DNA from: Gimesia algae
GTDB lineage: Bacteria; Planctomycetota; Planctomycetia; Planctomycetales; Planctomycetaceae
Length of the DNA: 64,000 nucleotides
Assembly: GCF_007746795.1 (NCBI RefSeq)
Contig: NZ_CP036343.1
Coordinates: forward strand, 6,710,357-6,774,356
Direction of reading: 5' to 3'
The position numbers and the translations under genes were made by a program. Of the stretch, positions 41,077-63,187 are shown one piece after another. Numbering within the stretch: position 1 is the stretch's first letter; the number at the start of each line of letters is the position of its first letter. Below the pieces are notes generated by a model that ran no database searches, was not told the origin of the DNA, and saw only the letters and a list, made by a program, of their open reading frames with translations.

Positions 41077-41164
<88 letters not shown>

Positions 41165-41172
41165 ATTTGATT

Positions 41173-41204
41173 GCCGTTGAGTTGTAAGCCTATAACTCAG
41201 CGGC
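41173..41204 (+). terminator. tRNA-Ser terminator hairpin
   Basis: GCCGTTGAGTT (41173-41183) pairs with AACTCAGCGGC (41194-41204, one G-T), followed by ATTTGCTTT. Confidence 0.55.
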
Positions 41205-41238
41205 ATTTGCTTTATCTGGACCGCTCCAGAGCTTCCCA

Positions 41239-41268
41239 TTTGTGGCACATTTTGTGGCGTTTTGTGGC
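41239..41268 (+). repeat. Three direct TTTGTGGC repeats before the integrase
   Basis: TTTGTGGC occurs at 41239-41246, 41251-41258 and 41261-41268, spaced 12 and 10 bases apart, just before the integrase start. Evenly spaced short repeats at this place are typical of arm-type integrase/excisionase binding sites; they could also serve as the integrase promoter operator. Confidence 0.6.
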
Positions 41269-41295
41269 ACGGGGGTTCTCTGAAAGGCTCTGTTG

Positions 41296-42690
41296 ATGAA
41301 GCAATCATCAAAACAAATTCGGAAGACATCGTTCCGTATCGGTAAAGTCCGCGGTGATTTACGAGGTAAAATCTGGTACCTCACTTACCATGAAAATGGA
41401 AAGCGATTGCGACCCAAACTTGGTCCCGACAAAGAACAAGCCCGGCAGATGGCTGCGCGTATCAATTCCCAGCTGGAGTCTCATACTCACTCAGTCTTTA
41501 ATTTCGAGCCTGTAAGTATTGATGACTTACAACAGCGCTGGCTCAACCATCATGAACAGGTATTGCGGTCTTCATTGCAAACCATCCGCCGCTACCGGGC
41601 TGCGACAACCCACCTCATTAATTTCATCGGACAAAAAGGTGTCGCTTCTAAAACATCTCTGTTTCAGGTCGGACATGCTGAGGAGTTTGTGCATTACTTG
41701 CGTACGATCAAAGTAGCACCCAATGGCCATGTAAATTCCCAGAAACGTCCTCTGCTGGACAAGGGAATTAAATACATCCTGCAATGTTGCCGAAGTATGT
41801 TCGGTTATGCGATAAAACGACGGCACCTTTCTCCCTATGCCGAAAACCCGTTCTCCTCTCTCGATTTGGACCGCATCCCAATCGAAAACGCTAAAGTCAT
41901 TTCCATTTTCAGTCCAGATCAGGAAAAGGCATTTCTAGAAGCCTGCGATGATTGGCAGTTCCCGGTTTTTCTCACTCTCATGCTGACGGGGCTCCGTCCA
42001 GGAGAACTTATCCACCTGTTGCTTCCAGATGATATTGATCTGAAAAAAGGAATGCTCTACGTCCGAAATAAACCTCGGTTAGGGTGGCAGGTTAAGACAC
42101 GCAACGAACGTGAAATTCCACTGATTAATGAACTGAGGGATGTTTTGAAAATCATCATCGGCGATCGCGTCACAGGCCCAGTCTTTTTACAACGCCGTTT
42201 TGCCTCAAGCTCCGTACTTCCAGAGTTGACTGGTTATACTGAAAAACAACTCGAAAACTTACTTCAGAAACGCGTAATTAAGGCAGAAGATAGCTCTGAT
42301 AAGTCATTAGACAGAAATCAGTGGACGCAACAATCGCGAACGATTTGGCGGGATTGTGGTACGCTGAAAACTGACCGAATACGAACGGAATTCATCAAAC
42401 TGACAAAGCAAATTGAACTACCAGAATTCACAGCCCCCAAATCGCTGCGACATCTCTTTGCCACATGTTTACAGGACGGGAATGTAGACCCGTTGATTCG
42501 AAGTGAATTGATGGGGCACTCTACTTCTGCAACGAATGGGGCGAGTCACGGTTTAGGTATGACTGCAACTTATACTCACTCACGTCCTGAAACTAAACGC
42601 AGACAATTACAAAATGCATTGTTGATTCGGCCATCAATAATAATAGCTCGTAAGCGTTTTTTAGAGATAATGAAGTCTGGACTTCCCTAG
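41296..42690 (+). CDS. Tyrosine recombinase (site-specific integrase)
   Basis: A 464-residue tyrosine integrase; ATG at 41296 with an AAGG element. An N-terminal SAM-like/core-binding region (about 60-170) precedes the catalytic domain. Catalytic residues seen: first Arg in LMLTGLRPGELIHL, second Arg in APKSLRHLFATCL, the following His in ELMGHST, and the nucleophile Tyr in TATYTHS. The His before the second Arg is replaced by Lys (K-S-L-R). The gene lies 134 bases past tRNA-Ser(CGA), so it probably integrated the region at the 3' end of that tRNA. It belongs to the same subfamily as the integrase at 58147. Confidence 0.92.
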   Translation: MKQSSKQIRKTSFRIGKVRGDLRGKIWYLTYHENGKRLRPKLGPDKEQARQMAARINSQLESHTHSVFNFEPVSIDDLQQRWLNHHEQVLRSSLQTIRRYRAATTHLINFIGQKGVASKTSLFQVGHAEEFVHYLRTIKVAPNGHVNSQKRPLLDKGIKYILQCCRSMFGYAIKRRHLSPYAENPFSSLDLDRIPIENAKVISIFSPDQEKAFLEACDDWQFPVFLTLMLTGLRPGELIHLLLPDDIDLKKGMLYVRNKPRLGWQVKTRNEREIPLINELRDVLKIIIGDRVTGPVFLQRRFASSSVLPELTGYTEKQLENLLQKRVIKAEDSSDKSLDRNQWTQQSRTIWRDCGTLKTDRIRTEFIKLTKQIELPEFTAPKSLRHLFATCLQDGNVDPLIRSELMGHSTSATNGASHGLGMTATYTHSRPETKRRQLQNALLIRPSIIIARKRFLEIMKSGLP

Positions 42691-47931: not shown

Positions 47932-49155
47932 TCATGATGTGTCACAGACCTCCCAGAGTTCGGAAGCCGGCAGCGAGGCACGTACCGCAATGGGAGCAGG
48001 AAGTCGCTCCCAGCGGGAGGGCAGTTCCTGCGACCTGTGGAGCGCGGCCTGGCCACAGGATGGACAGATTGCAGGCAACTCCCCCGCCACCGGGGAATCT
48101 TCAAGGGAATGTTTTTCGGTCGGAGACGCCGCTCCTTCCAGCAGTTCGCGGCACAGCGCGGTCTTTTCTGTCCGGAAGCGGTTGGCCAGAAAACCGTAAT
48201 GCCGAATCCGCATCAGTCCGTCCGGAAGCACGTGCTGCAGGAACCGGCGGAGAAACTCTGTGGCGGCGAGCGTCATGGTCCGCTTCCGACTGCCTTGGGC
48301 ATAGTCTTTATAGCGAAACGTGACCTGGCCGTCTGCGACGTTCAACAGCCGGCTGTTCGAGATCGCCACGCGGTGCGTGTAACGTGCCAGGTATTTGAGT
48401 ACCGACTCGGGGCCGCCGAACGGCGGCCGGGCATACACGACCCATTCGGTCTGCACGGACCGGTTGAGAAGACGCTTGAAGTCCGCAGAATCGGCGGCGG
48501 AAGCCAGCCGCCCGGGGAATTCCAGTTTCCCCGCAGCAAATGCCTGCTTGAGCAGATCCAGAAACTTGCCGCGAAACAGCCGACTGAGTACGCGCACGGG
48601 CAGGAAGAAATCGGCCCGTCCCGCGACCCAGCGTGTGCGGTCGGGCGCCAGTCCGCCGGAAGGGACCACGCAATGCAGATGGGGATGCGGCATCAGGGTT
48701 TGTCCCCAGGTATGCAACACGGCCAGGAACCCGATCTCCGCCCCCAGGTGCCTGGGATCGGCGGCGACTTCCAGTAACGTCTGGCTGGCCGCGCGGAACA
48801 GCATCCCGTACATCAGCCGCGGGTTGGCAAGCGTCAGGTCCACCAGCAGGTTCGGCAGCGTGAACACCACGTGGAAGTAGGGCACGGGCAGTAGTTCGGT
48901 TGCCCTCCGCTGCATCCACTGTGCACAGGCAGAACCCTGGCACTTGGGGCAGTGGCGATTCCGGCAGGAATTGTAACTGATCTGTCGATGGTCGCAGGAG
49001 CGGCACGTTTCCACATGCCCGCCCAGAACCGCAGTCCGGCAGTTCTGCAGCGCCCGCATGACGCGGCGCTGGGCGACGGACGTGGTGTATCGCTTCAGAT
49101 ACTCCATTCCGTACTGCCGCACGACGTCAGCGAGTTCCCACCGGGGACGCGTCAT
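47932..49155 (-). CDS. IS91-family HUH transposase
   Basis: A 407-residue IS91-type transposase that cuts single-stranded DNA. The N-terminal zinc-finger region reads HVETCRSCDHRQISYNSC...CPKC (about 48-70). The HUH motif PHPHLHCVVPSGG (about 154-166) and the tyrosine region LKYLARYTHRVAISNSRLL (about 255-273) are intact, and length matches the family. The start ATG (49155) overlaps the stop of the upstream recombinase gene by four bases, so both are made from one mRNA. GC-rich, unlike the neighbouring genes, which fits recent arrival. Confidence 0.93.
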   Translation of the reverse strand: MTRPRWELADVVRQYGMEYLKRYTTSVAQRRVMRALQNCRTAVLGGHVETCRSCDHRQISYNSCRNRHCPKCQGSACAQWMQRRATELLPVPYFHVVFTLPNLLVDLTLANPRLMYGMLFRAASQTLLEVAADPRHLGAEIGFLAVLHTWGQTLMPHPHLHCVVPSGGLAPDRTRWVAGRADFFLPVRVLSRLFRGKFLDLLKQAFAAGKLEFPGRLASAADSADFKRLLNRSVQTEWVVYARPPFGGPESVLKYLARYTHRVAISNSRLLNVADGQVTFRYKDYAQGSRKRTMTLAATEFLRRFLQHVLPDGLMRIRHYGFLANRFRTEKTALCRELLEGAASPTEKHSLEDSPVAGELPAICPSCGQAALHRSQELPSRWERLPAPIAVRASLPASELWEVCDTS

Positions 49156-50024
49156 GAGTCCTCCTGTAGCGTGTCTGTCTGGTCCTGCTCGTGGAGCAGT
49201 TCCAGTGGACTGCGGGTGCGGCCGATCAGGTGCGTGGAAACGTGCGTGTAGATCGCGGTGGTCCGCAGGCTGGCATGGCCCAGAAGTTCCTGGATGACCC
49301 GCAGTTCCGTGCCGGCTTCCAGCAGATGCGTGGCGAAACTATGGCGGAGTATGTGTGGCGTGACGGCTTTGTCCAGGCCGGCTTCACTGCGTGCGTCCCG
49401 GCAGACCCGTTGTACCGTTCCCACAGTGATCGGTTTGATCCGTGAAGGACCGAGAAACAGCCAGTCGACCGGACGGGCGGCCCACCAGTAGTACCGCAGC
49501 ATTTGCAGTAACAGAGGTGAGAGCAGCGTATAACGATCTTTTTTTCCCTTCCCCTGCACGATGCGGATCACCATCCGCTGGCTGTCGATGTCACAGATCC
49601 GTAAACGCACTGCCTCGGAAATCCGCAATCCTGACGCATAGGCCGTCATCAGGATGGTGCGGTGCTTGAAGGAGTGCACCGCCTGAAAGAAACGGCGCAC
49701 CTCGTCAAAACTCAGCACCTCCGGTAAATGCCGCTCGGGCCGGGGGCAGCGAATGTCGTGCACGATCTCTCCGCGATGGAGCGTGTTCCGATACAGGAAC
49801 CGCAGCGAGGCCAGCACCTGCTTGTAGGTTCCCCAGGCGACTTGCCGGTCCTGGACCAGGTACAGCAGGTAAGTTCGGATGGCCTCCGGTCCCAGGGCTT
49901 CCGGGCTTTTACCGAAGTGCCGGGCAAAACGGGACACGTTGTCGACATAAAGAATGATCGTTTTCGGGGACAGGTTCCGTAGTTCCATATCCTCGATCAT
50001 GCGCTGCCGGAGTGGAGTCATCAC
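49152..50024 (-). CDS. Tyrosine recombinase associated with IS91-type element
   Basis: A 290-residue XerC/D-like integrase. Core-binding domain: RMIEDMELRNLSPKTIILYVDNVSRFARHFGKSPEAL. Catalytic residues: Arg in ASGLRISEAVRL, Lys in GKGKKDRY, His-x-x-Arg in TPHILRHSFATHLLEAG, His in LLGHASLRTT and Tyr in AIYTHV. All are intact. It is the first gene of the element. A recombinase paired with an IS91-type HUH transposase is frequent in this group; its part in transposition is not established. Confidence 0.93.
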   Translation of the reverse strand: MMTPLRQRMIEDMELRNLSPKTIILYVDNVSRFARHFGKSPEALGPEAIRTYLLYLVQDRQVAWGTYKQVLASLRFLYRNTLHRGEIVHDIRCPRPERHLPEVLSFDEVRRFFQAVHSFKHRTILMTAYASGLRISEAVRLRICDIDSQRMVIRIVQGKGKKDRYTLLSPLLLQMLRYYWWAARPVDWLFLGPSRIKPITVGTVQRVCRDARSEAGLDKAVTPHILRHSFATHLLEAGTELRVIQELLGHASLRTTAIYTHVSTHLIGRTRSPLELLHEQDQTDTLQEDS

Positions 50025-50242: not shown

Positions 50243-50302
50243 AGGGGAAGGATTAGCTATCGTCGATCGTAGTCAATTCCATTTTCAAATTTATCATCAG
50301 TA

Positions 50303-50339
50303 AAAACGCCCCGCATTACACGGGAATGCGGGGCGTTTT
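50303..50339 (+). terminator. Terminator-like hairpin before the Ubl operon
   Basis: AAAACGCCCCGCATT (50303-50317) pairs perfectly with AATGCGGGGCGTTTT (50325-50339). The run of Ts makes it a terminator in both directions. The first gene of the operon starts 29 bases downstream, so either it ends transcription from the IS91 element and the operon promoter lies over it, or it is an attenuator. Confidence 0.65.
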
Positions 50340-50368: not shown

Positions 50369-50560
50369 TTGGAAATTATTGTTTTAACGTTCGTCTCTGT
50401 CGCGCTATTGCTGGCTGTCATCGCTTTTATCAAGGAGCGAAGTCTGCGGCTGGCGCTACAGGGTATTCTCAGACACCTGATTCATCGCTGGAGGGCAAAT
50501 GGAAAAACAGACGCTTCGACTCACACTGACGCTGATTCTACTGACCGGAGTCAGCTGTAG
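50369..50560 (+). CDS. Small membrane protein
   Basis: A 63-residue protein with one transmembrane segment near the N-terminus (residues 3-21, IIVLTFVSVALLLAVIAFI) and a basic, then acidic, cytoplasmic tail. It starts at a TTG (50369), seven bases after an AAAGGAG element. It overlaps the next gene by 62 bases. First gene of the run leading to the Ubl/E1 genes. No family known to me; a membrane anchor or accessory subunit is the simplest guess. Confidence 0.6.
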   Translation: MEIIVLTFVSVALLLAVIAFIKERSLRLALQGILRHLIHRWRANGKTDASTHTDADSTDRSQL

Positions 50561-51068
50561 TTCCGACGAAAACAGTCGTGTGGCCGAACTGGCCACGCAA
50601 CAACTGGAACGTCAGTCGAATCAAAACCGTCGGATGGTCGAACTGCAACAGGAAGTCGCCTCGGGTTCACGCGAGCTGGTGGAAGCTGATGCCAGAGCCC
50701 GGCAGGAAATGGTCGTTCTGCAGCGCGAAATCCAAGCAGGGCAAAATGAAATCGGCCACCAGCGCGATCAGCTGGAAGCAGAACGTCGTGAAATCGCTGA
50801 CAGCCGAAATCGAGATCCGATTATTGCGGCTGCGATCACCAGAGTGGCCTTTGTGGTGGCCAGTCTGCTTCCCCTGCTGATCTGCTGGCTGTTGCTGCAG
50901 CAGAAGGTAGAACCTGTGAGCAAGAATGAGATCGCAGAATTACTGCTGGACGATTTGGTCTCATCTGACCCACGGCTGATGCCACCTGCGAAAACAGATC
51001 CTGACAAACTCCGGTTAACGGATTTACTACAATCTCCTGATAACTCATCTACAGAAAGGGAAAACTGA
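50499..51068 (+). CDS. Coiled-coil membrane lipoprotein
   Basis: A 189-residue protein. Start ATG at 50499 with GGAGG five bases upstream. A lipobox-like end of the signal (TGVSC, Cys20) suggests lipid anchoring. Residues 25-105 form a long coiled coil rich in Gln, Glu and Arg, followed by a membrane segment (about 112-133: FVVASLLPLLICWLLLQ) and a C-terminal tail of about 55 residues with several acidic and Leu residues. I infer a scaffold that holds the operon's soluble partners at the membrane. Unknown family. Confidence 0.7.
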   Translation: MEKQTLRLTLTLILLTGVSCSSDENSRVAELATQQLERQSNQNRRMVELQQEVASGSRELVEADARARQEMVVLQREIQAGQNEIGHQRDQLEAERREIADSRNRDPIIAAAITRVAFVVASLLPLLICWLLLQQKVEPVSKNEIAELLLDDLVSSDPRLMPPAKTDPDKLRLTDLLQSPDNSSTEREN

Positions 51069-51069
51069 A

Positions 51070-51447
51070 ATGTCACATATTGTTACCATCCAAACGGAAG
51101 TTCGCGATGCCGAGGCACTGGGCCTGGCCTGTCGCCGCCTCGATTTAGGAGAACCCGTTCACGAAAGCGTTCCCCTGTTTAGCGGAGAAGCGACCGGTTA
51201 CTGTGTCCGTCTACCGGACTGGCGGTATCCTGTTGTGTTCGACGTCGATCAAGGCCAGGTTCGCTACGACAACTTTGAGGGCCGCTGGGGCGAACCGGGT
51301 CAGCTCAACAGACTACTGCAATTTTACGGCGTAGAAAAATGCCGCCTGGAAGCGCGCCGTAAGGGACATTCCGTCCTGGAGAACCAGCTCAGCGACGGTT
51401 CCATCAAACTTACCATTCAGCTCGGAGAGGGTCATGCAAACAATTGA
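51070..51447 (+). CDS. DUF1257 (Ycf35-like) protein
   Basis: A 125-residue DUF1257 protein: MSHIVTIQTEVRDAEALGLACRRLDLGEP opening, then the region LPDWRYPVVFDVDQGQVRYDNFEGRWGE and RLLQFYGVEKCRLEARRKGHSV. DUF1257 is the Ycf35 family of plastids and cyanobacteria, whose function is unknown. It starts 2 bases after the lipoprotein gene stop and overlaps the DUF2997 gene by 14 bases. That pairing with DUF2997 and a Ycf46-type ATPase is typical, so the three probably form one complex. Confidence 0.88.
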   Translation: MSHIVTIQTEVRDAEALGLACRRLDLGEPVHESVPLFSGEATGYCVRLPDWRYPVVFDVDQGQVRYDNFEGRWGEPGQLNRLLQFYGVEKCRLEARRKGHSVLENQLSDGSIKLTIQLGEGHANN

Positions 51448-51628
51448 AATCATCATTTCAACCGATGGTCAGTCCCGGATCGAAACCCGCGGCTTTACCG
51501 GTTCCCGGTGCAAGGACGCTAGCCGGTTTCTGGAAACGGCGCTGGGGAAAGTCTCCTCGGAAAAACTGACCGCCGAATATCATCAAACCGTCCAACATCA
51601 ACCCAACCATCTGACACAGGAGAATTAG
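51434..51628 (+). CDS. DUF2997 protein
   Basis: A 64-residue protein matching DUF2997: TIEIIISTDGQSRIETRGFTGSRCKDASRFLETALGK, a small beta-rich domain with the G-F-x-G-x-x-C-x-D motif. The Cys (Cys26) may bind metal or be modified. It is regularly found next to DUF1257 proteins. The ATG overlaps the end of the DUF1257 gene. Confidence 0.88.
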   Translation: MQTIEIIISTDGQSRIETRGFTGSRCKDASRFLETALGKVSSEKLTAEYHQTVQHQPNHLTQEN

Positions 51629-51687
51629 CTTTCGCAAATCAACACATTCAGGTCTTACCGGACCCGATTCCCGAAGATTCGCCACTG

Positions 51688-52293
51688 GTGCGTGTGCTGG
51701 TGGTTGTTGAAGGGACGCATGACATCAAGTTCCTGAGACGGATCTCCACTCTTCTGCACACCGATGATCCTACACTGCCTGATCTGGCCAGCATGGAACG
51801 CAACAGGGAACTCATTTTTCTGCCGATCAGCGGTCATCCTCAGGCCTGGATCAGGAGACTGGCTCCTCTCAACCTGCCAGAGTTTCATCTGTATGATCGC
51901 GAGCAGTCACCGGTCACAGAACAGCGTCAGCAAACAGTCGACACGATCAATCAACGCTATCGCTGCCGCGCCATGTTGACCAAAAAGCGAAGTCTGGAGA
52001 ACTATCTGCACCCCAGTGCCATTCTGGCCGTTGCCAGTGTGGAACTGAATTATGGCGATCATGACTGTGTGGCAACCGTTGCGGCGCAACAGATATTCGA
52101 AAGCAGTCATGGCAACCCCAACTGGAAACAGATCACCAAGCGTGCCCGGGTGCGACTGACAAATCGCGTTAAGCACTGGCTCAACACCAGCGCCGTCGAA
52201 CAGATGACGGTTTCATTGCTACAGGAACGCGATCCTGAAGGAGAAGTCATCTCGTGGCTGGAGTCAATCAGCCAACTGGCTGAAACCACTTAA
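51688..52293 (+). CDS. TOPRIM-like protein (putative nuclease or primase domain)
   Basis: A 201-residue protein whose N-terminal sequence LVVVEGTHDIKFLRRIS has the TOPRIM strand and conserved Glu, with an acidic pair later in FHLYDREQ that could be the D-x-D/E metal site. The middle part KKRSLENYLHPSAILAV resembles the region seen in OLD-type TOPRIM nucleases. The start is a GTG at 51688 with no clear Shine-Dalgarno; upstream codons are open to the previous gene without a good start, so the N-terminus is uncertain. Role probably in nucleic-acid cleavage or binding. The rest of the protein is unknown. Confidence 0.68.
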   Translation: MRVLVVVEGTHDIKFLRRISTLLHTDDPTLPDLASMERNRELIFLPISGHPQAWIRRLAPLNLPEFHLYDREQSPVTEQRQQTVDTINQRYRCRAMLTKKRSLENYLHPSAILAVASVELNYGDHDCVATVAAQQIFESSHGNPNWKQITKRARVRLTNRVKHWLNTSAVEQMTVSLLQERDPEGEVISWLESISQLAETT

Positions 52294-52340
52294 GCACATT
52301 TCACACTTTCTTTTTTCTTCAAACCATCAAGGAAATTTCT

Positions 52341-53837
52341 ATGTTACTATCAGAACGTCTGGCGGAGAACGTACGCGCCTGCTTTACTGGAATCTGGATT
52401 CAGAGCCATGAACACGATGAGGCATTGTTGGAGATGGCCCGGCTCTGCCACACTGAAGACTGGCGGTTACTCTCCTGGGACATTGACCGGGGCCTGCAAG
52501 GGACGGAACTCGCTGAGGACGGCGACACATCGCTCCCCGATCCTCTGGCGGCCATTCACAGTTTAAGTAGTCAGGCCGATCCGGACCGTCCCACACTGCT
52601 GGTTCTGAAAAACTTCCATCGCTTCATCGATTCGCCTGAGATCATTCAGGCGCTGACACAACAGATCAACTTGGGGAAACAGGCACGGACATTTATTGTC
52701 GTGCTTTCCAGTCTGGTACAGATTCCGACGGAGTTGGAAAAACTGTTTGTTTGCCTGGAGCATGATCTTCCTGATCGGGATCAGCTGCTGGAAATTGCCC
52801 GCAGTATCGCCACGGAAACGGGAGAATTACCGGAGGGTCCAGAACTGGAGCGTGTCCTGGATGCCGCTTCGGGTCTGACCCGTTATGAAGCGGAAGGGGC
52901 CTTCAGTCTCTCGCTGGTACGTCATAGCCGCATTGAAGCCTCAGTCGTACTGGAGCTAAAATCTCAAACGTTATTGAAAAGCGGTATGCTATCACTGCAT
53001 CAAGGATCGGAATCGTTCGATGGATTGGGAGGTTTGGAAGCACTCAAAGCCTTTTGCCGGTGTGCGCTCCGTCCCCGGCCACAGGATGCAACGGTCGTTC
53101 GTCCAAGAGGCGTCTTGCTGCTGGGAGTTCCGGGAACCGGTAAGAGTGCGTTTGCTAAAGCACTGGGAAAAGAGACCGGGCGTCCCACACTGACCCTCGA
53201 CGTCGGGGCTCTGATGGGTTCGCTTTTAGGCCAAACAGAAGAGCGAACTCGAAGGGCACTCCAGATCGTCGATGCGATGCAACCGGCCATCCTGTTTATT
53301 GACGAAGTCGAAAAAGGGCTGAGTGGCTCTGCCTCTTCCGGACAGTCTGACAGTGGCGTGTCGACCCGCATGCTGGGAACACTGCTCAGCTGGCTGAACG
53401 ACCACACCTCAGACGTGTTTGTGGTCTGTACCGCCAACGACATTTCCAAACTGCCGCCGGAGTTTGTACGCGCCGAACGCTTTGATGCGCTGTTCTTTCT
53501 GGATTTACCGGGAGATGACCAGAAACAGGCCATCTGGCGTCTGTACCGTGATCTGTTTGGTCTTACGTCCGATCAACGTTTGCCAGACGACCGGCACTGG
53601 ACCGGTTCGGAAATCCGGGCCTGCTGTCGTCTGGCGGCTCTACTGGACGTGCCCTTAATCAAGGCTGCAGAAAACGTGGTTCCTGTGGCTGTCACAGCCG
53701 CCGAATCGGTGGCCCGTTTACGACGCTGGGCCAGCAAACGCTGTCTGTCTGCAGAACAGCCTGGCGTTTTTAGTAACGACGAACGTTCCGGTTCGCGTTC
53801 ACGTGGGAATCTTTCGCACGATCCCCACAGAAATTAA
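52341..53837 (+). CDS. AAA+ ATPase, Ycf46-like
   Basis: A 498-residue AAA+ protein of the Ycf46 type. The N-terminal domain (about 1-210: LLSERLAENVRACFTGIWIQSHEHDEALLEMARLC) fits Ycf46. Walker A GVPGTGKS at about 259-266, Walker B AILFIDEVEK at about 316-325, sensor region VVCTANDISKLP, and arginine-finger region RAERFDALFFLDLP follow in FtsH-like order. The enzyme would use ATP to remodel a partner. It is the only obvious motor of the operon. ATG with AAGGA element upstream. In cyanobacteria Ycf46 has been linked to regulation of CO2 uptake, which may not apply here. Confidence 0.92.
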   Translation: MLLSERLAENVRACFTGIWIQSHEHDEALLEMARLCHTEDWRLLSWDIDRGLQGTELAEDGDTSLPDPLAAIHSLSSQADPDRPTLLVLKNFHRFIDSPEIIQALTQQINLGKQARTFIVVLSSLVQIPTELEKLFVCLEHDLPDRDQLLEIARSIATETGELPEGPELERVLDAASGLTRYEAEGAFSLSLVRHSRIEASVVLELKSQTLLKSGMLSLHQGSESFDGLGGLEALKAFCRCALRPRPQDATVVRPRGVLLLGVPGTGKSAFAKALGKETGRPTLTLDVGALMGSLLGQTEERTRRALQIVDAMQPAILFIDEVEKGLSGSASSGQSDSGVSTRMLGTLLSWLNDHTSDVFVVCTANDISKLPPEFVRAERFDALFFLDLPGDDQKQAIWRLYRDLFGLTSDQRLPDDRHWTGSEIRACCRLAALLDVPLIKAAENVVPVAVTAAESVARLRRWASKRCLSAEQPGVFSNDERSGSRSRGNLSHDPHRN

Positions 53838-53863
53838 ACCAAACTCTATTTAAAGGAGACAAT

Positions 53864-54805
53864 ATGACTACGACTGCTATTGATGAAGTAAATACCCGCA
53901 CCGATCCCATCAATCGGCTGCGATCAACGATGTGTGCCACACGCATCAGTTTTGAATGGTTTGGCACACGCAAATCCCTAACACGCGACCAGAAGACTCA
54001 GGCTGCCGAATCGTTTGGGGCGGAAGGGACTTTCCTGAGTGCCGGCAAGAAACTGCTGGATACCGGTCATCCCCGCTTCCGCGCCGTGAATGCGGTCCGG
54101 CAGCGAGTGCGATCGTACTGGACTTCGATCAGTCTGCCTTTTCCGGAACCCGGGATACGGTTACTGCGGCAGGATACCCTGACTACTTTTCAGGAACAGA
54201 TGCACCAATTTACGGTAGAACTCAACGAAGCTGTTTCAAACCTGGATGAACAATATTTGTCTCTGAAGTCTGCAGCCCAGGAGCGTCTGGGAAGTCTGTA
54301 CAATGACGACGATTATCCCGTGAGCATGATCGGTTTGTTCGAGGTTTCCTGGGACTTTCCCAGTGTAGAACCGCCGGATTATTTAAGGCAACTCAATCCT
54401 GAACTGTACGAGCAGGAATGTCAGAGGGTGAAGTCGCGGTTCGAAGAAGCGGTTAGGCTGGCGGAAGACGCCTTTCTGGGTGAACTGTCACAGTTGGTGT
54501 CGCATCTGACTGACCGTCTCAGTGGTCAAGCCGACGGCCGGCCCAAAGTCTTTCGTGATTCCGCCATAGGTAACCTGCACGAGTTCTTTGAACGCTTCCG
54601 CTCTCTGAATGTGCGATCGAATGAGCAGCTGGATACTCTGGTAGCCCAGTGTCAGGGAATCGTACAAGGCATCCAGCCTCAGGAATTGCGAAAACGCGGT
54701 GAACTCCGTCAGCAGGTGGCTTCAGAGTTGTCTGGAGTCCAGGCAGCCCTGGATGGTCTGTTGATTGATCGACCGCGGCGACAAATTATCCGAACCCCCA
54801 AATGA
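53864..54805 (+). CDS. Protein of unknown function, DUF3150-like layout
   Basis: A 313-residue helical protein. ATG at 53864 with AAAGGAG upstream. Features: an N-terminal RISFEWFGTRKSLT segment, a long helical part (EQMHQFTVELNEAVSNLDEQYLSLKSAAQERLGSLYN), then YPVSMIGLFEVSWDFPSVEPPDYLRQL, and coiled regions to the end. The FDxxDYP/ x-V-x-x-x-F-x-PVP-like pattern in the middle reminds me of the DUF3150 family of phage and mobile elements, but this is a tentative likeness. Directly after the AAA+ gene by 26 bases, it may be the ATPase partner or substrate. Confidence 0.65.
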   Translation: MTTTAIDEVNTRTDPINRLRSTMCATRISFEWFGTRKSLTRDQKTQAAESFGAEGTFLSAGKKLLDTGHPRFRAVNAVRQRVRSYWTSISLPFPEPGIRLLRQDTLTTFQEQMHQFTVELNEAVSNLDEQYLSLKSAAQERLGSLYNDDDYPVSMIGLFEVSWDFPSVEPPDYLRQLNPELYEQECQRVKSRFEEAVRLAEDAFLGELSQLVSHLTDRLSGQADGRPKVFRDSAIGNLHEFFERFRSLNVRSNEQLDTLVAQCQGIVQGIQPQELRKRGELRQQVASELSGVQAALDGLLIDRPRRQIIRTPK

Positions 54806-54815
54806 GGTGATCCAC

Positions 54816-55067
54816 ATGAAACTTTTAATCTCACCACAGGGGACGGTGCACTGCGTTTACTCCGAGGAAATTGATCTGGCAACCTTCGGTCGACTGGCCA
54901 TCTCACGTGGCTCATATGTCGAACCGAATGCAGACGGTCAATGGAATGTGGATCTGTCTCCCGTGGACGGGCCACAGTTGGGACCTTTCGCGCACCGAAG
55001 TGCAGCCCTGAAATCAGAAACGGACTGGTTGGAGCAGCATTGGTTGCCGACAGACATCAGTCCCTGA
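54816..55067 (+). CDS. Small protein of unknown function
   Basis: An 83-residue protein from the ATG at 54816, which has GAGGTG upstream and lies 10 bases after the previous stop. Mixed strand/helix sequence (MKLLISPQGTVHCVYSEEID ... VDLSPVDGPQLGPFAHRSAAL), with a Trp-rich end (TDWLEQHWLP). No family recognised. Confidence 0.65.
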   Translation: MKLLISPQGTVHCVYSEEIDLATFGRLAISRGSYVEPNADGQWNVDLSPVDGPQLGPFAHRSAALKSETDWLEQHWLPTDISP

Positions 55068-55098
55068 GAATTGACGACATAATTTTGACTACTGGTTT

Positions 55099-55142
55099 GC
55101 CCCGGTCTCGCAAGTTTGTTGCCTGCAGGACCGGGGCTTTTA
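55099..55142 (+). terminator. Internal terminator-like hairpin (Ubl operon)
   Basis: GCCCCGGTC (55099-55107) pairs perfectly with GACCGGGGC (55129-55137), followed by TTTTAT. The next gene starts 35 bases after the T-run, so read-through or a second promoter must serve it. Confidence 0.65.
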
Positions 55143-55176
55143 TATTTGAACGCTTACATTTTCAAGGAGACGACTG

Positions 55177-55392
55177 ATGAAACAAGTAGATTTAAATCGG
55201 GCCGTTGCCCTGGCAACCGGCGAAAGTATTTCGACCGTGAAACGCCTGGGCTTTTTACTGGCAGAGCCAGATGAGCACATTGATCCTGCAGCAGAAGAGT
55301 CAGGGCCGTATGTGATCGACTGGGATGAGTTGGAAACCAATCGACTCAACTCTTTAAGACTAGGGGCACGCCATGAACCAGTGGTGGCCTGA
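55177..55392 (+). CDS. Small HTH-like protein
   Basis: A 71-residue protein with VDLNRAVALATGESISTVKRLGFLL, a short motif that I have seen often in small planctomycete proteins and which looks helix-turn-helix-like. ATG at 55177 with AAGGAG upstream. It overlaps the next gene by 20 bases. Function unknown. Confidence 0.6.
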   Translation: MKQVDLNRAVALATGESISTVKRLGFLLAEPDEHIDPAAEESGPYVIDWDELETNRLNSLRLGARHEPVVA

Positions 55393-55564
55393 TCTTCAAA
55401 CGAGTGAAAGCTGTCGAACTATCCCAGAGGATCTCAGTGCACGGTCGAATGCACTGTCGGCCCTACGACAAATCATGCACGCCGGTCGCATCAAGGGACG
55501 ACGTTGTGTGAAAAGTAATACACGCCGTAGGAAACGACGTCGCAAACGACAGACGCTCACATAA
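55373..55564 (+). CDS. Small basic protein
   Basis: A 63-residue, strongly basic protein (C-terminal TRRRKRRRKRQTLT), starting at an ATG (55373) that overlaps the previous gene by 20 bases and has AGGGG upstream. It may bind nucleic acid. No family is recognised and a spurious frame is not excluded, though a stop-start overlap of this kind is typical of real operon genes. Confidence 0.45.
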   Translation: MNQWWPDLQTSESCRTIPEDLSARSNALSALRQIMHAGRIKGRRCVKSNTRRRKRRRKRQTLT

Positions 55565-55615
55565 ACAACCAATGTCAATTTTTATCGAAATTCAATCAGG
55601 AACGGAAAGACTTTT

Positions 55616-55840
55616 ATGAAACTTTTATTGATCAACAATGATGGCGGTGGTTTCGCTGATTATATCGACGTCCCCGCTGGAACGACGGTGGCACAACTCT
55701 TTGAACAGAAGATGGGGGATGCTGTGGCCCGCGATTACCTGATTCGCGTGAACCGCCAGCCCTGTCCTCCAAATCAGTGTTTACAGGACGGGGATCGGAT
55801 TTCGATTACTCCCACAAAGATTGAGGGGGCGTGGTCCTAG
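55616..55840 (+). CDS. Ubiquitin-like beta-grasp protein (ThiS/MoaD-like)
   Basis: A 74-residue protein with the beta-grasp layout: [34 protein letters not shown], then [25 protein letters not shown], similar to ThiS/MoaD and bacterial Ubl proteins. The C-terminus is KIEGAWS, so it has a single Gly with a three-residue tail rather than the usual terminal di-Gly; a JAMM peptidase that removes the tail (the operon has one) would expose an EG end. It is followed by the Cys-rich, JAMM and E1 genes. I infer the modifier of a Ubl conjugation or sulfur-transfer system. Confidence 0.8.
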
Positions 55841-55853
55841 GTTTGTATTTCCT

Positions 55854-55889
55854 CAGGCTGTCGGGGCTTCGTTCCCGGCAGCCTGTTTT
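55854..55889 (+). terminator. Second internal terminator-like hairpin (Ubl operon)
   Basis: CAGGCTGTCGGG (55854-55865) pairs with CCCGGCAGCCTG (55874-55885, one G-T), followed by TTTT. The next gene begins 31 bases later. Confidence 0.65.
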
Positions 55890-55916
55890 GAGATCACTTT
55901 TTTAAAAGAGGAGACT

Positions 55917-56966
55917 ATGAAATATTCAAAAAAACAATTCTGGCGGGCTGCCAGTCATATTTTTCACTGTCTGGTATCAGAAGAATCTCCGACACAATTA
56001 AAACAGCCTTTCGAAGTCTGGTGGCACTGTGATCGATTGATTCAGAAATGTCAGCAGGCACAACGTAGAGGTTGGAATCTGGCTGCTTTAAAACTGGAAC
56101 GAGAACTGAAAACTAGTCTTGCTCAGCTGATCCAGCAACTAACAACTCTGCACGGCAAATTGTCGTCGGATTCACCACAGCAGATTTCCTCTATTGGGGA
56201 GCTCTACGCAGAACTGCTGGCTTTAGAAGAAGAATTTGGTGAGGTGAATCTGGATCTCCGAACGCAGAGCATTTCAGTCATCACAGAACGAATTGAACTG
56301 GAGGCCATCTATCTGGGCCCCTTTGAGATTTGCCTTGACTATGGAAACCAAAACACCAATGGATCTCTCCATTACCGGGTGATCGCTAGAGACCCCAATC
56401 CGGCAATTACCAATGACGGTGTCACACATCCCCACGTTCAGTCAGAAGTCGTCTGTGAAGGAGAGGGACGATTGGCGATACGCCGTTCACTGGAACAAGG
56501 AAGGCTGTTTGATTTTTTCACGATGGTGGCCAGCCTGTTACGAACTTATAACTCCGACAGCCCCTATGTAGCGCTCAGTGACTGGGACAGCGTTGAATGT
56601 ACCGAGTGCGCTGATGTGATTGCGGCCAACTCACAGACACGCTGTGAAAACTGTGAAATCACACTCTGCACGGGATGTGCTAAAGACTGTTCGGACTGCG
56701 ATTGTCCGTTTTGCCATGAATGTTTGTCGTACTGTGACAGCTGTCACGGCCAATGCTGTTCGTCCTGTCTGCGACAGTGCATTCAGTGTCATGCCGACTG
56801 TTGTCAACGTTGTTTACTTGAAAATGAAAGGTGCTCTGATTGCGATGCACAAGAAATCGAAGAAACGAATGAAGAAAAACAGGAAACCCATACAGCAGAA
56901 GCAAAACCAGTTACCGCAACTGCGGTTCAGCCCGACAGCTTGGGCGAAACTGTTGTACCTGCGTAA
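55917..56966 (+). CDS. Cysteine-rich zinc-type protein of the Ubl operon
   Basis: A 349-residue protein; ATG at 55917 with GAGGAG upstream. The N-terminal two thirds (about 1-225) are mixed alpha/beta and unknown to me. Residues about 228-312 contain 23 cysteines in a run of CxxC and CxC pairs (ECTECAD, RCENCEI, LCTGCAK, CPFCHEC, YCDSCHG and so on), typical of RING, B-box or treble-clef zinc modules. It lies between the Ubl and JAMM genes, so an E3- or E2-like adapter is possible, but no E2 active-site Cys pattern can be assigned. The last 122 bases overlap the JAMM gene. Confidence 0.75.
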
Positions 56967-57516
56967 TTATGGAGACACCGAAGTGGGAGGCTTCGGTATC
57001 TCTTCAGAGGTCGATCTATTGCTGGTGCAGGATCTGCAACTAGTGGAGCAAACCTGCTCGTTGGCTCATGTGGCCTTCGACGATGAGGCAGTCGCCAACT
57101 TCTTTGACGATCAGGTGGATGCAGGTCTGCGTCCTGAGCAGTTTGGTCGGATCTGGATTCACACGCATCCCGGCGATTGTCCCTTACCCAGCCTAACGGA
57201 TGAAAAAACCTTTGCTCGCGTCTTTGGTCGATCTGACTGGGCTGTGATGTTTATCTTGGCGCGGACAGGGCAAAAATATGCGCGGTTAAAATTTAATGTG
57301 GGTCCCACGGCCGAATACGAAATTCCCGTGAAACAGGATTACGCTCACACATTTGCCGGATGCGATCCAGAAAGTTGGGAGGACGAATATTTAAGTCACG
57401 TGCATCCGCAACATAATCGTCGTCTACTCCAGTCTGCTTTTGATCAGACCGCAGATTTTGACTGGGAAGAGGACTGGCTCTTTGCTGAAAACGAATTGAA
57501 AGGAGAACAAATTTGA
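56845..57516 (+). CDS. JAB/JAMM metallopeptidase (deubiquitinase-like)
   Basis: A 223-residue JAMM protein. The zinc motif is complete: Glu46 in the TEVGGFG stretch, then His106-Thr-His108 and Ser116 and Asp119 in [17 protein letters not shown] (H-x-H-x7-S-x2-D). Such enzymes cut Ubl chains or trim Ubl tails. The most likely start is the ATG at 56845 with AAAGGTG some distance upstream; 56869 is an alternative and an open frame runs further up inside the previous gene. With 56845 it overlaps the Cys-rich gene by 122 bases in a different frame. Stop overlaps the E1 gene start. Confidence 0.9.
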
Positions 57517-58202
57517 ATACATTAAATGTGACTACGGATCGTTTCAAAAGACAGAGTGACCTGATCCCAGCAGCACGACTTTCCCATATTACGGCAACCG
57601 TCATCGGCGTGGGAGCCATTGGTCGTCAGGTCGCACTGCAACTGGCGGCCATTGGGACACGACAGATTCAGCTGATCGACTTTGACACGGTGGAATCAAC
57701 TAATATCACGACTCAGGGATATCGAGACCAAGATCTGGGACAGTCTAAAGTAGACGCAACGGCCAGAGCCATTCAGGAGCTTGATGATTCGATTCAAGTA
57801 ACGGTGACTCCAGATCGTTATCGAGTATCAGTTCCTGTGGGAGAGGCTGTCTTTTGCTGTGTCGATTCTATCTCTGCGCGGGCGGCGATCTGGCGTTCTG
57901 TATCCTCTCACTGCCAGCTATTTGTAGATGGCCGTATGCTGGGTGAAGTAATCCGTGTCCTCTCAGTGGCTGCTCCCCACAACGACAACAATTACTATGA
58001 ATCGACTTTGTTTCACCAGTCCGAAGCCCAAACTGGTCGCTGCACAGCACAAAGTACAATCTACACCGCTAACATCGCTGCAGGCTTAATTCTGCACCAG
58101 TTCACACGCTGGCGACGCATGTTACCTTTGGATCGTGACATCACCCTCAGCCTACTCGCAAGCGAGTTGATTCTGGGGCCTGATCCATCTCGGGAAATTT
58201 AG
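57513..58202 (+). CDS. E1-like/ThiF Ubl-activating protein
   Basis: A 229-residue ThiF-fold protein; TTG start (57513) seven bases after AGGAG, overlapping the JAMM stop. The nucleotide motif GVGAIG (residues 32-37) and the downstream acidic [27 protein letters not shown] region that places ATP/Mg are intact, as is the Cys177 in GRCTAQ, the position of the catalytic Cys in ThiF/MoeB-like and PRTRC-type proteins. It should adenylate the Ubl C-terminus. Short: no extra UFD domain. The last 56 bases overlap, tail to tail, the integrase gene on the other strand. Confidence 0.92.
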
Positions 58203-59694
58203 AACGTACTAAGACTTCGGCCGCTGACTTCAGTTCAACATTACGATTTGTTACCGCAGCTATAATTGGCTGGAACTGTCTTTGGCTGGCTTCCAGATAA
58301 CGTTCCCGTAACTGGTCGAGATGGGTGTAATTGGTAATGGCTGCCTTGCTGACAGCATGTCCCATCAAGTACTTCCGATAATATTCTGGCATCCCGGCAT
58401 TCATCATGGCGGTGCTGAATAGATGACGGAAATCTTTGAGAGTTGCCTTGGCTGGCCAGGATAGCTGGCCAGCCAGGCGATGAAACTCATGCTCAATATG
58501 GTCGTATTTAATTCCACCTGCATCGTGGAGTAACTGATCCCGTATCTGCATTCCTTGTTCTGCAGTGAAATTAGCAGTCATCTGACAACGGCGCGAATAT
58601 TCTTTTGTTAGCTGCTCCAGTGACTGATCTAATAAAGGCGGCTGTTCTGAACCTTCAAAAACAGCACGACGCCGAATCAACAATCCTGTTCCTATATTTT
58701 CAGAGCCACCCTCCAGGATCTCCCGGATCGGTTCCAGCAAAGGTAACCTCTTATCACGCCTGCCTTTGGTCGTATAACTGATTTGTGGCAGGCAAATCAC
58801 CTTTAACCATCCATCTGAAGTCAGGTTTTCCCGGAAAAGAAAGCAAGGTTCCGCAGCCCTCAGACCATAAAAAATCAATAACACAAACAGGTGAAGTTGG
58901 TAACTGTCGCACTTTTTCAAAAAATCAACGACCATTGGGATTGTAATATCGGGCTCCCCGAATAGATCTGGGGCAACCGAGGCGGACTGACGAACTTTTC
59001 CCTGAAAGGGATTTCGGAAGCCTGATGGCATCAGATTTCCACGATCCGGGTCGGCCGCCCAGATATACATTCCCCGGACCACGTCCTGTACGTAATCAGT
59101 CGAAGACATTGTCTTTTTCCGCGTATGGGGGTGCCCATTAGAAGAAACCTGCAGATTCTTTAAGTATGCTTGAAACTGTAAAACTAGATCAGGATTGACA
59201 TTAGTGATAGATGGGTACGCCGTCGTTATCAATGGCTGTTGGATAAAAGTATGATAATGCTCTAATGCTGAAGCATATCGCCTGACCGTTTTGGGAGCGA
59301 TTTCACCGGCATCGGCTCGACGTTGTAAGTGATTTTGATAGAGGTCGAGTAGACTCTGGTGCTTTAGTTTTCCTCTCCCCAAACCGGATGAGCGAAAGTG
59401 TTTAAGACGCTCCTCGATTTCCCGGGCACGAAATATAGCACTTACCAGATCACCGTCGATCCGTTCTGTGAGATTCTTTTTTGCAGCAGGGTCCCAGAAT
59501 TGAAGCCGAAAGTAGTCGTTTTGTCTATATATACGTACTTTTTTGGGTGACTCAATTCCGTCCGGGAAATTCTCGATGCGAATCCAGCGATGCTTGGTTT
59601 TATATTTCTCACACCAGGTCGAACTTTTCGCATCAGGTTCTACCTGTTTCTGGGAAAAGTCTCCTGGTTGGATGTCGTCTCTTTTGCGAACCAT
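58147..59694 (-). CDS. Tyrosine recombinase (integrase) related to that at 41296
   Basis: A 515-residue tyrosine integrase counted from the ATG at 59694 (the frame is open to 59748). The catalytic region has [12 protein letters not shown] (first Arg), [19 protein letters not shown] (Arg with Lys in place of the usual His), [11 protein letters not shown] (His) and NYTHL (Tyr). Order and spacing, including the Lys, match the integrase at 41296, so the two are homologues of a subfamily. It is convergent with the Ubl operon and its end overlaps the E1 gene by 56 bases. It diverges from the gene at 59883, with a palindromic site in between. Confidence 0.92.
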
Positions 59695-59796
59695 CTTACG
59701 TGTCTTTAAACTGCCCTTGAATTTTGATATCGAACAGGTTTCTACCAAGGAAACCCATCAGTTGGGATCAGCTTAAAAATTGGCGTTCACAACTCG

Positions 59797-61954: not shown

Positions 61955-63187
61955 ATGATTAGACCACAGTACGATCTCAAGAAACTGATCAACTACATTC
62001 GCTACGGTCGTATGAGCGACCCTAACCAGAACCCTTCAAGTCCGGATCAGCAATATGATACAATTGATCTTGTATTAAGGAGGTGCGGGTCCGACCATTG
62101 GAAACATTTAGCTGACTATCGTGATGATGGTATTTCAGGGCGGTTATTAAGGAAACGACGTGGTTTCCAGAAAATGCTGTTTGATATCAAATCAGGCGTT
62201 ATCAGTCCTGATGTCATCCTGGTTGATGATATTGACCGGTTTGGAAGAGTGGACGATCTTAAAGAGATCCGTCGTGATTTGTATAACAAGTATGGGGTTC
62301 TGATCTTGGATGCAAAATCTAATTTCGAAGATCCCCACACTCCCCAAGGACGTATTTACAACTCAATTGAAGAAATACGCGCTGTTGAAGAGGGGAAAAC
62401 AAAAGCCCATCGTGTTCTTAGAGGCAAACGGGATGCTATTTCACGCGGTCGATGGTCAGGTGGCAAACCGCCATTTGGTTATCAACTGGAAACTCGTCAA
62501 GAAGATACCAATGGCCGTTCTCGTTCTTATAGTATTATTGTTCCTGATCCTGAAACGGCAAGGATTATAGTATTACTATTCCGGAAGGCTGATGAGACCG
62601 GTTGGGGACAAGACCGTTTAAGCAAATTTCTCAATAATCATGAAGATGTACCAGAGCATCAAAAACCGTTTCATGGTTCCACTGTTGGATCATGGCTTGA
62701 TAATGAAATTTATACCGGAAAAATGGTTTGGCCTAAAGTTACTACAGACATCATCAGTGATTGCCGAGTCATTGAAAAAATCCCTGCTGAAGAACAGATG
62801 CACGTTGATGACTATTGCACACCAATAGTGGAATACGATGTATTTGATCGAGTCAGGCGAATAAGAAAAGCTCGAGGACAATTACGGAAAGCTGCACTGG
62901 CTGAAACCACACCGCAATCAGACAAGCAAATCAAAGCGCCTGCTCCCGGCATGACAATTCGCTATTTATTGACAGGCCTTGTTCGCTGTGGCCATTGTAA
63001 TAGATCTATGGTTCCAAATCGGGGGGGGAGTTATGTCACGAAAAACAATGAAACTCGCGAATATACGGCTTACACATGCCCAGGACATAGAACTGGGATT
63101 TGTTCCAACAATAAAACGATTCCGGAGAAATGGCTTCGTCAAATGGTAATAGATGCCATCAAAATCCGTCTGTTCCCATCATCCTGA
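61955..63187 (+). CDS. Serine recombinase (resolvase/invertase type) with zinc ribbon
   Basis: A 410-residue serine recombinase. The resolvase domain starts with INYIRYGRMSDPNQNPSSPDQQ; the Ser after RM is the likely nucleophile, and the Arg pair follows in DGISGRLLRKRRGFQKML, VLVDDIDRFGRV. The Recombinase domain (about 165-260, GKPPFGYQL) and a zinc-ribbon (LVRCGHCNRSMVPN, then TCPGHRTGICSNN, about 335-390) complete it. The long coiled-coil C-terminus common in large serine integrases is missing and appears as a separate frame after a terminator. It probably acts on the island or its parts. Confidence 0.92.
   Translation: MIRPQYDLKKLINYIRYGRMSDPNQNPSSPDQQYDTIDLVLRRCGSDHWKHLADYRDDGISGRLLRKRRGFQKMLFDIKSGVISPDVILVDDIDRFGRVDDLKEIRRDLYNKYGVLILDAKSNFEDPHTPQGRIYNSIEEIRAVEEGKTKAHRVLRGKRDAISRGRWSGGKPPFGYQLETRQEDTNGRSRSYSIIVPDPETARIIVLLFRKADETGWGQDRLSKFLNNHEDVPEHQKPFHGSTVGSWLDNEIYTGKMVWPKVTTDIISDCRVIEKIPAEEQMHVDDYCTPIVEYDVFDRVRRIRKARGQLRKAALAETTPQSDKQIKAPAPGMTIRYLLTGLVRCGHCNRSMVPNRGGSYVTKNNETREYTAYTCPGHRTGICSNNKTIPEKWLRQMVIDAIKIRLFPSS

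Follow-up and report, generated by a model that had tools for sequence, protein, structure and literature searches.

The stretch of DNA considered here, called the window, comprises 64,000 nucleotides (nt) of Gimesia algae (GCF_007746795.1, NZ_CP036343.1, positions 6,710,357-6,774,356, forward strand), part of one 7.93-Mb contig; coordinates below are relative to it. Positions 50369-58202 hold a run of 14 genes that an initial annotation, made from the letters alone, had read as a single mobile device joining a ubiquitin-like protein (Ubl) and its enzymes to an AAA+ ATPase. All 14 open reading frames (ORFs) are confirmed, all on the + strand, and the close spacing then described holds: the gaps between neighbours are -62, 1, -14, 59, 47, 26, 10, 109, -20, 51, 76, -122 and -4 bases, 11 of the 13 being below 60. 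Two modules can be distinguished: a core, which is DUF1257, DUF2997, a Cdc48/AFG2-like AAA+ ATPase, a DUF3150-like protein and an 83-amino acid (aa) protein; and a Ubl module of four genes, encoding the Ubl, an E2-like zinc protein (E2-zinc), a JAMM peptidase and an E1. The cassette is not a product of chance, because the Ubl genes and the AAA+ recur jointly in relatives and because a second copy lies in the same genome, with an AAA+ 93% identical and matches to all 14 genes, the TOPRIM-like gene being in two pieces.

The core and the ubiquitin-like module

The best Protein Data Bank (PDB) matches of the AAA+ are AFG2, VCP and Cdc48 (1e-33). Its Walker A K268, Walker B D321 and E322, N366, R377 and R380 are each present in 46 of 46 sequences (residue counts, here and for the catalytic residues below, refer to distinct sequences with letters at the position, 37 to 47 per family). 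PDB AAA chains match the full protein in two stretches; for the N-terminal 245 residues, a PDB profile search gives no AAA match and one lectin match (3e-4), read as chance. The Ycf46 label is tentative, coming from the initial annotation and the neighbourhood; the neighbourhood is as had been stated, DUF1257 and DUF2997 both lying near the AAA+ in 38 of 40 AAA+ regions fetched from among the matches in relatives.

The labels given to DUF2997, the AAA+ and the E1 (ThiF) correspond to clear Pfam matches (Table 1); those of three other proteins hold in part. DUF1257 is supported through its relatives: the window protein alone matches below the curated cut-off (E 0.036), and 8 of 8 aligned members match PF06868 at E<=1, the best at 2.1e-15. 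It is presumably the equivalent of Ycf35; a profile search of the PDB with the family gives nothing useful. DUF3150 is an indirect label: the window protein has no match to PF11348, one of seven aligned relatives does (1.9e-9), and a relative on a Manganitrophus plasmid carries the DUF3150 annotation. The TOPRIM label is at the level of motifs, E8-G9 and D70-x-E72 being invariant in six of six aligned sequences; Pfam gives no credible match, and a profile search of the PDB yields only anoctamin chains (E 0.66-0.72).

Two small genes precede the core. The membrane-like one is present in 14 loci of the first locus set, the window included, and in more of the E2-zinc locus set; the coiled-coil lipoprotein-like one is present in 16 loci, again counting the window. 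The suggestion that the device is kept at the membrane would depend solely on these two predicted proteins, and both genes also occur without the AAA+ core (L042, L043, L123, L124, L138).

In the Ubl module, the ThiS match of the Ubl lies below the curated cut-off. The tail of the window protein reads ...TPTKIEGA, followed by a variable extension. G71 and A72 are conserved in 37 of 37 sequences, and 37 of 39 copies have IEGA at the end of the protein core (L132 and L133 have IHGA and VQGA) with 0 to 35 variable residues after it, an arrangement that fits a precursor trimmed by a peptidase. Two copies (L007, L138) end exactly at the Ala, so that the mature end may be Ala, or Gly once the Ala is removed. 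The JAMM protein matches Prok-JAB, below the curated cut-off, and the JAB of the cyclic oligonucleotide-based anti-phage signalling system (CBASS) in PADLOC (3.6e-5). Its complete motif had been recognised from the start and is intact among relatives (E...HxH...S...D: E46, S116 and D119 each in 41/41, H106 and H108 each in 41/42). So had GVGAIG and Cys177 of the E1, which holds one ThiF domain: G32, G34 and G37 of GxGxxG are each found in 39 of 40 sequences, and the candidate catalytic C177 in 40 of 40. The nearest PDB entries include PaaA, UBA7 and Citrobacter BubCD; the best NCBIfam matches are ThiF (1.3e-17) and MoeB (7.3e-15), both below cut-offs. The Cys177-Thr motif resembles that of ubiquitin E1s.

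The remaining protein of the module had been described as a zinc-type protein with 23 Cys. Those 23 Cys are present, at residues 228-309; what had been missed, like the exchangeable effector slot and the hairpins that punctuate the genes, is a middle domain (residues 85-225) that reads as a divergent E2 domain. The reading is made because fold, motif and operon partners agree, no single score being significant. In an eight-row alignment the N-terminal part varies, most rows have HPHV...(V/L)C(E/V)G(E/D)G in the middle, and CxxC pairs are present; H171, H173 and C180, each in 39 of 39 sequences, give the active-site His/Cys arrangement (HxH...Cys), with a spacing presumably one residue shorter than the eukaryotic one. 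For the full-length AlphaFold2 model (predicted local distance difference test, pLDDT, 62; predicted template modelling score, pTM, 0.39), 42 of the 50 PDB matches listed carry E2-enzyme titles, all with E above 1e-3. With the domain alone, modelled from seven sequences (pTM 0.69, pLDDT 69) and compared with 350,542 PDB chains, the best 50 of 586 matches (E<=10) are all UBC-like by title, including E2s (Atg10 and UFC1 among them), an RWD domain and VPS37A, the last presumably of UEV-type fold. A plain zinc finger was rejected on the basis of this search.

The zinc array itself follows the pattern W-x4-CxxC-x9-13-CxxC-x4-CxxC-x3-CxxC-x4-CxxC in 34 of 41 proteins of at least 200 aa; matches to RING, B-box and ZZ chains of the PDB are weak, the best at 0.0017 with a Cys-rich query. 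A search for Prok-E2_D in 59 relatives gave no match, as did its control, and is hence no sign of absence. The E2-zinc and JAMM genes overlap by 122 bases (56845-56966), and the JAMM frame may partly explain the conservation of the E2-zinc C-terminus.

Linkage, exchange and mobility

The AAA+ is found at E<=1e-30 in 99 of 149 relatives, patchily and in multiple copies, up to 9 per genome. All five core genes are present in 38 of the 40 fetched regions (the exceptions are L054 and L087, the latter of a distant clade), and all four genes of the Ubl module in 16. Ten regions, none with the Ubl module, have a clamp-like ORF in its place, and the remainder have neither; the ten are loci with a clamp-like ORF of their own (283-758 aa), leaving aside matches of 28-43% identity that share sequence with the 83-aa gene or are on the opposite strand (L067 and L085, for example). 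The clamp-like protein is a putative sliding clamp, 8 of 10 PDB matches being beta clamps (E 0.24-0.6), and 4 of the 10 loci add a PD-(D/E)XK nuclease (4e-31). In L059 (9846-12609), as in L060, L061 and L072, clamp-like protein, small coiled protein and nuclease together fill the slot of the Ubl module. The initial annotation had proposed seeking its gene set in other planctomycetes; the sets do recur together, but the modules proved separable, as the ten clamp regions illustrate.

Seen from the other side, E2-zinc is matched at E<=1e-10 in 31 of 149 relatives and in 14 of 392 phylum-wide genomes. Among 55 E2-zinc loci, a figure that omits nine shorter fragments (62-136 residues), 36 are preceded on the same strand by a core AAA+ at a distance of 2.0-6.3 kb, in 16 of them 2.0-2.1 kb; two (L134, L137) hold core remnants cut by the contig start, and three (G033, G027, G064) begin at a contig edge, where linkage cannot be judged. 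These and the later linkage counts refer to the AAA+ matches listed and omit an AAA+ clade of 30-38% identity. Full-length core AAA+ places number 113 in the same matches, a figure that includes some too close to a contig end for a Ubl module to be visible; 36 AAA+ places, one a fragment, are linked. One genome (G029) has three Ubl modules (L128-L130) and no AAA+ match at 1e-30.

The AAA+, DUF1257 and DUF2997 genes also lie together on plasmids of Nitrospirota (there with DUF3150-like and 83-aa genes), Aquificota, Bacillota and Cyanobacteria, and an Acidobacteria phage has AAA+, DUF2997 and DUF3150-like genes; none of these five plasmid and phage regions has the Ubl module. At the thresholds used, E2-zinc has no match in plasmid, phage or viral collections and the Ubl a single irrelevant one in the plasmid collection; viral contigs searched with E2-zinc and AAA+ gave nothing useful. 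The E1 has no plasmid match at 1e-8, and at E 5 distant ThiF proteins, a CBASS-like cluster being among two regions examined. A genome-contig search, which reaches close relatives only, gave nine loci: eight contigs of planctomycete metagenome-assembled genomes and one labelled Emcibacter. Within the collections searched, the Ubl module is confined to planctomycete sequences and this one contig (L041), whose AAA+ is 94% identical; misbinning or recent transfer would account for it, and the contig is probably misbinned.

One way to understand such separability is to regard the modules as two unrelated passengers: the AAA+/DUF1257 core would be a maintenance or DNA-processing cassette of mobile elements, with which the Ubl module shares a landing slot and does not cooperate. 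This is a possibility to be taken seriously, though on balance an unlikely one. The modules separate in both directions, the slot elsewhere holds a putative clamp (with a nuclease in four loci), core relatives lie on plasmids and in a phage, with no Ubl module in the five regions examined, and some core-module distance correlations are weak; yet linkage is the majority state (36/55), and AAA+ divergence tracks that of E2-zinc and of E1 in both sets of loci compared. The sets come from 18 loci with all ten genes, after one near-duplicate was dropped. Between AAA+ and E2-zinc, the Mantel r is 0.96 (p 0.0015) for 10 Gimesia-type copies and 0.47 (p 0.0235) for 8 others; most gene pairs tested are correlated.

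The earlier claim of a mobile island between an IS91 element and an integrase is borne out by Pfam on both flanks (Table 1). Within the genus, two further genomes have homologous tRNA-Ser flanks next to cassettes (L054, L064), and the downstream integrase, a 442-aa gene and the serine recombinase are common to L048 and L125. The E1 3' end (57885-58202) has two allelic forms, one in 4 copies with the integrase, the other in 6 without; since the allele tracks the integrase in the 10 copies compared, this end may be the integrase attachment site. The IS91-type element ends within a conserved upstream stretch of the cassette (47932-50260), with a similar junction in L055; in L052 and L056, IS91 genes are found about 0.35 kb and 2.6 kb upstream, respectively. 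At 43565-45629, two genes match the PADLOC candidates PDC-M41B (1e-114; a DUF5131 gene) and PDC-M30A (7e-28; TcmP, TIGR04474).

A second perspective supposes a host operon for stress or protein quality control that turned mobile and is unrelated to phages. Ycf46 and Ycf35 (DUF1257) do occur as plastid genes too, and to our knowledge no phage phenotype is known; but the AAA+ matches are multi-copy and patchy and lie beside integrases and serine recombinases, and defence candidates are near the cassette in the window, which leaves this account rather doubtful.

Table 1. Features of the cassette, its junctions and its flanks (window coordinates)
Feature	Position	Strand	Basis or remark
Leader terminator-like hairpin	50304..50339	+	Sequence and fold; 29 nt before first gene
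Small membrane-like protein, 63 aa	50369..50560	+	ORF; membrane nature from sequence only
Coiled-coil lipoprotein-like protein, 189 aa	50499..51068	+	ORF; lipoprotein label from sequence only
DUF1257 protein	51070..51447	+	PF06868
DUF2997 protein	51434..51628	+	PF11211, E 6.9e-17
TOPRIM-like protein, optional gene	51688..52293	+	Motif conservation
Classical AAA+ ATPase with extra N-terminal region	52341..53837	+	Pfam AAA, 3.3e-27
DUF3150-like protein	53864..54805	+	Homology to annotated DUF3150 plasmid protein
83-aa core protein	54816..55067	+	In 39/40 fetched AAA+ regions
Terminator-like hairpin, core/effector slot	55099..55141	+	Sequence and fold
71-aa protein, heads or follows effector slot	55177..55392	+	Locus comparison
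63-aa basic protein	55373..55564	+	Gimesia-type copies only, 12 loci
Ubl, ThiS/MoaD-like beta-grasp, 74 aa	55616..55840	+	ThiS, 3.4e-4
Terminator-like hairpin, Ubl/enzymes	55854..55889	+	Sequence and fold
E2-like domain and zinc array, fused	55917..56966	+	Fold preference, conserved motif
JAMM/JAB metallopeptidase	56845..57516	+	Prok-JAB, 0.0028
E1/ThiF-type adenylating enzyme, single domain, 229 aa	57513..58202	+	PF00899 ThiF, 1.6e-24
tRNA-Ser(CGA), then tyrosine integrase; likely left island edge	41077..42690	+	Phage_integrase, 1.7e-13
IS91-type transposase and Xer/integron-type recombinase, directly upstream	47932..50024	-	Y2_Tnp, 1e-66; Phage_integrase, 2.8e-40
Tyrosine integrase overlapping E1 3' end	58147..59748	-	Phage_integrase, 1.2e-8
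Serine recombinase, downstream	61955..63187	+	Resolvase, 3.7e-18

Hairpins at the gene junctions

The three terminator-like hairpins of the window sit 27 to 35 nt before start codons. By a fixed score threshold, chosen after a laxer first pass, a hairpin separates the 83-aa gene from the 71-aa gene in 26 of 34 loci and Ubl from E2-zinc in 18 of 23, and one precedes the first small gene in 11 of 14, with shuffles at 0.4% in each case; the dinucleotide shuffle can revert to a plain one, related copies are not independent in these counts, and distant loci differ in sequence. Where DUF1257 is the first gene, 10 of 28 loci have a hairpin before it (shuffles across junctions, 0.4-0.9%); between AAA+ and DUF3150-like, 7 of 30 do, and three other junctions (28, 9 and 17 loci) show none by the same score. 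Hairpins at three junctions make a single uninterrupted operon less likely, but one promoter-like site overlaps the second hairpin. Rfam, applied to 41000-64000, returns the tRNA, two sub-threshold matches at the tRNA, and nothing at a hairpin.

Thirteen non-Gimesia loci, selected visually out of 37 (L044, L059-L064, L068, L069, L071, L072, L074, L076), have a more elaborate form in the gap ahead of the 71-aa gene. Here, the hairpins covary and are mutually exclusive: a middle strand pairs either upstream or downstream, with predicted energies that differ by 0 to 5.5 kcal/mol. Pairing in the upstream helix amounts to 98.5%, and 6 of its 11 pairs show double-sided changes, a number equalled by 0 of 500 shuffles. 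The terminator helix is 83% paired, with 3 double-sided pairs, equalled by 12 of 500 shuffles (its covariation score by 38 of 500); this count is lowered partly because the alignment shifts one helix strand by a column in four rows (L061, L068, L069, L071). Bistable hairpins of this kind have the anatomy of an attenuator and are a candidate for a new attenuator RNA. The window hairpin has the simple form only, with no bistable alternative.

A proposed tagging cassette, a possible role in defence, and known systems

The reading favoured here, with a probability of about 0.55, is a protein-tagging cassette that is both mobile and modular and serves, most probably, against phages or in stress; defence would be the likeliest role, judging from the genes and their surroundings. 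From the gene content and motifs, the E2-like fold preference, the linkage and separability of the modules, the hairpins with their covariation and the mobile context, we infer a scheme that runs from catalysis through AAA+ action on tagged targets to regulated antitermination and defence. That is, the E1 would adenylate the Ubl C-terminus and hand the Ubl via Cys177 to Cys180 of the E2; the zinc array would recruit targets or serve as a built-in E3; the JAMM would trim the variable Ubl tail at the invariant Gly-Ala, remove the tag, or both. The Cdc48/AFG2-like AAA+, with DUF1257, DUF2997 and the DUF3150-like protein, would be an unfoldase platform in its own right, which in linked loci would remodel or extract assemblies that carry the tag. 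The junction hairpins might attenuate transcription, and so set the dosage of Ubl to enzymes or hold the effector module off until read-through.

Several results weigh against this reading. On linkage, 14 of the 55 E2-zinc loci have upstream sequence without a core AAA+ (some keep an 83-aa-like gene nearby), so the AAA+ is not needed for the Ubl module; DUF3150-like and E1 distances (r 0.42, p 0.08) and Ubl and AAA+ distances (r 0.21) correlate weakly in the 8 diverse loci, as do those of E1 and other genes (r about 0.5 or less) in the Gimesia-type copies. On the E2, the domain model reaches a best E of 0.063 and a best probability of 0.90, with none at E<=1e-3 among the matches listed; the sequence-profile search of the PDB is empty, and Pfam finds no E2 family in the E2-zinc family, only incidental matches. 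The Ubl terminus is Gly-Ala, without Gly-Gly. The match of the AAA+ to the defence ATPase IetA is confined to the AAA domain, and Pfam and PADLOC, the latter covering 10 window proteins, identified neither a toxin nor a CD-NTase in what they scanned. Under the laxer first hairpin score, shuffled sequences often passed as well (11 of 34 and 11 of 23), and a simple scan tool with a terminator definition of its own found no excess (10 vs 8.0 +/- 3.2). The single device of Ubl and AAA+ first proposed is upheld in part by the majority linkage and correlated divergence; against it stand the 14 loci just named and the 24 of 40 AAA+ regions without the full Ubl module.

A bolder version, still more tentative than the stress operon, sees a mobile Cdc48-like AAA+ unit that offers a single slot for exchangeable effectors: in some islands a complete Ubl cascade (E1, E2 with a built-in zinc E3, JAMM, and a Ubl conjugating through Gly-Ala), in others a set of sliding clamp and nuclease. 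A bistable attenuator at the slot would keep the effector back until antitermination, which an infecting phage, for instance, might bring about. If true, this would be a plug-in platform: a bacterial machine that tags and extracts, and that changes its output through recombination. The weakest alternative, sulfur-carrier chemistry, in which Ubl, E1 and JAMM form a thiocarboxylate pathway like that of ThiS/MoaD and the E2-like protein has another role, fits the ThiS-like Ubl and the ThiF and MoeB matches of the E1, but is improbable and was rejected: Pfam recognises no rhodanese, cysteine synthase or sulfur-metabolism family in the 14 genes, an E2-like domain with invariant HxH...Cys is present, the Cys177-Thr motif is like that of ubiquitin E1s, and the Ubl is without C-terminal Gly-Gly.

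For the tagging cassette, natural variants (linked, unlinked or with another effector, some in single-contig genomes) make cooperation between Ubl cascade and AAA+ directly testable. Bacterial ubiquitin-like systems are of current interest for immunity and for how eukaryotic ubiquitin signalling arose, and we have not before met, described together, a single-Ubl E1-E2-JAMM cascade, an E2-zinc fusion, an adjoining Cdc48-like unfoldase and a modular layout punctuated by hairpins.

Several described systems are close to the cassette. BilABCD likewise has Ubl, E2, JAB and E1 functions in one cluster, the E2 being assigned here by model and motif. In that ISG15-like system, BilA has two Ubl domains, the peptidase processes the precursor Ubl, BilD combines an inactive and an active adenylation domain, and BilB has a CEHH motif (PMC11354881). 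Here, in contrast, the Ubl is single (74 aa), the E1 has 229 aa and one domain, and the E2 is of HxH type and joined to a zinc array, the set often lying next to the AAA+ core; with neither tandem Ubl nor double adenylation domain, a filing under BilABCD was rejected. The Caldiarchaeum-type operon is alike in its separate E1, E2 function, zinc-binding candidate E3, JAMM and single Ubl (PMC5654768), with relatives in Actinobacteria, Planctomycetes and Acidobacteria (Burroughs et al. 2011, as cited in PMC4197634); the cassette differs in making E2 and zinc part one protein, in its Gly-Ala, ThiS-like Ubl, and in its AAA+, DUF1257, DUF2997 and DUF3150-like neighbours.

The FtsH ternary conflict systems, planctomycetes included, also place an AAA+ beside Ubl, JAB, E1, E2 and RING, and carry MoxR, vWA, a Ubl-E2 fusion with EAD1 and a caspase-like effector (Kaur et al. 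2020, PMC7159879). None of these last four was recognised in the cassette, and the filing was rejected for want of a MoxR AAA+ and vWA; Pfam (E<=1) finds no vWA family in the 14 cassette and 4 flanking genes, though a very divergent one could escape. Operon types 6a-6e (Iyer et al. 2006, PMC1779556) share Ubl, E2, JAB and E1 in mobile contexts, type 6d having a single Ubl and a separate E2; unlike the present case, the PMC1779556 text has 0 occurrences of 'AAA', 'DUF1257' and 'planctomycete', and its account of operon types has no E2 zinc array. Type II CBASS (Cap2/Cap3) provides the best defence-library matches of the E1 (E1-E2, 1.3e-14) and of the JAMM (JAB, 3.6e-5), but here no CD-NTase is recognised in the 10 proteins scanned by PADLOC, E1 and E2 are unfused, and there is a Ubl gene; this filing too was rejected, for lack of CD-NTase and E1-E2 fusion. 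PRTRC was rejected likewise: the E1 scores 33.4 bits against the PRTRC ThiF model TIGR03736, whose cut-off is 144.75, and no ParB family is found among the 14 genes (Pfam E<=1).

The core resembles the set of Ycf46, Ycf35 (DUF1257) and DUF2997, whose genes lie close together also on Paenibacillus, Thermovibrio and Geminocystis plasmids. The planctomycete version adds DUF3150-like, 83-aa and 71-aa genes and the exchangeable effector module, and in the Thermovibrio and Geminocystis sets gene order or strand also differs. Literature on DUF1257, DUF2997 and planctomycete Ubl operons has no description of this combination among the matches listed. The Ubl module is a variant of the known bacterial ubiquitin-like operons; of most interest are its exchangeable coupling to a Cdc48-like core and the candidate attenuators at the junctions.

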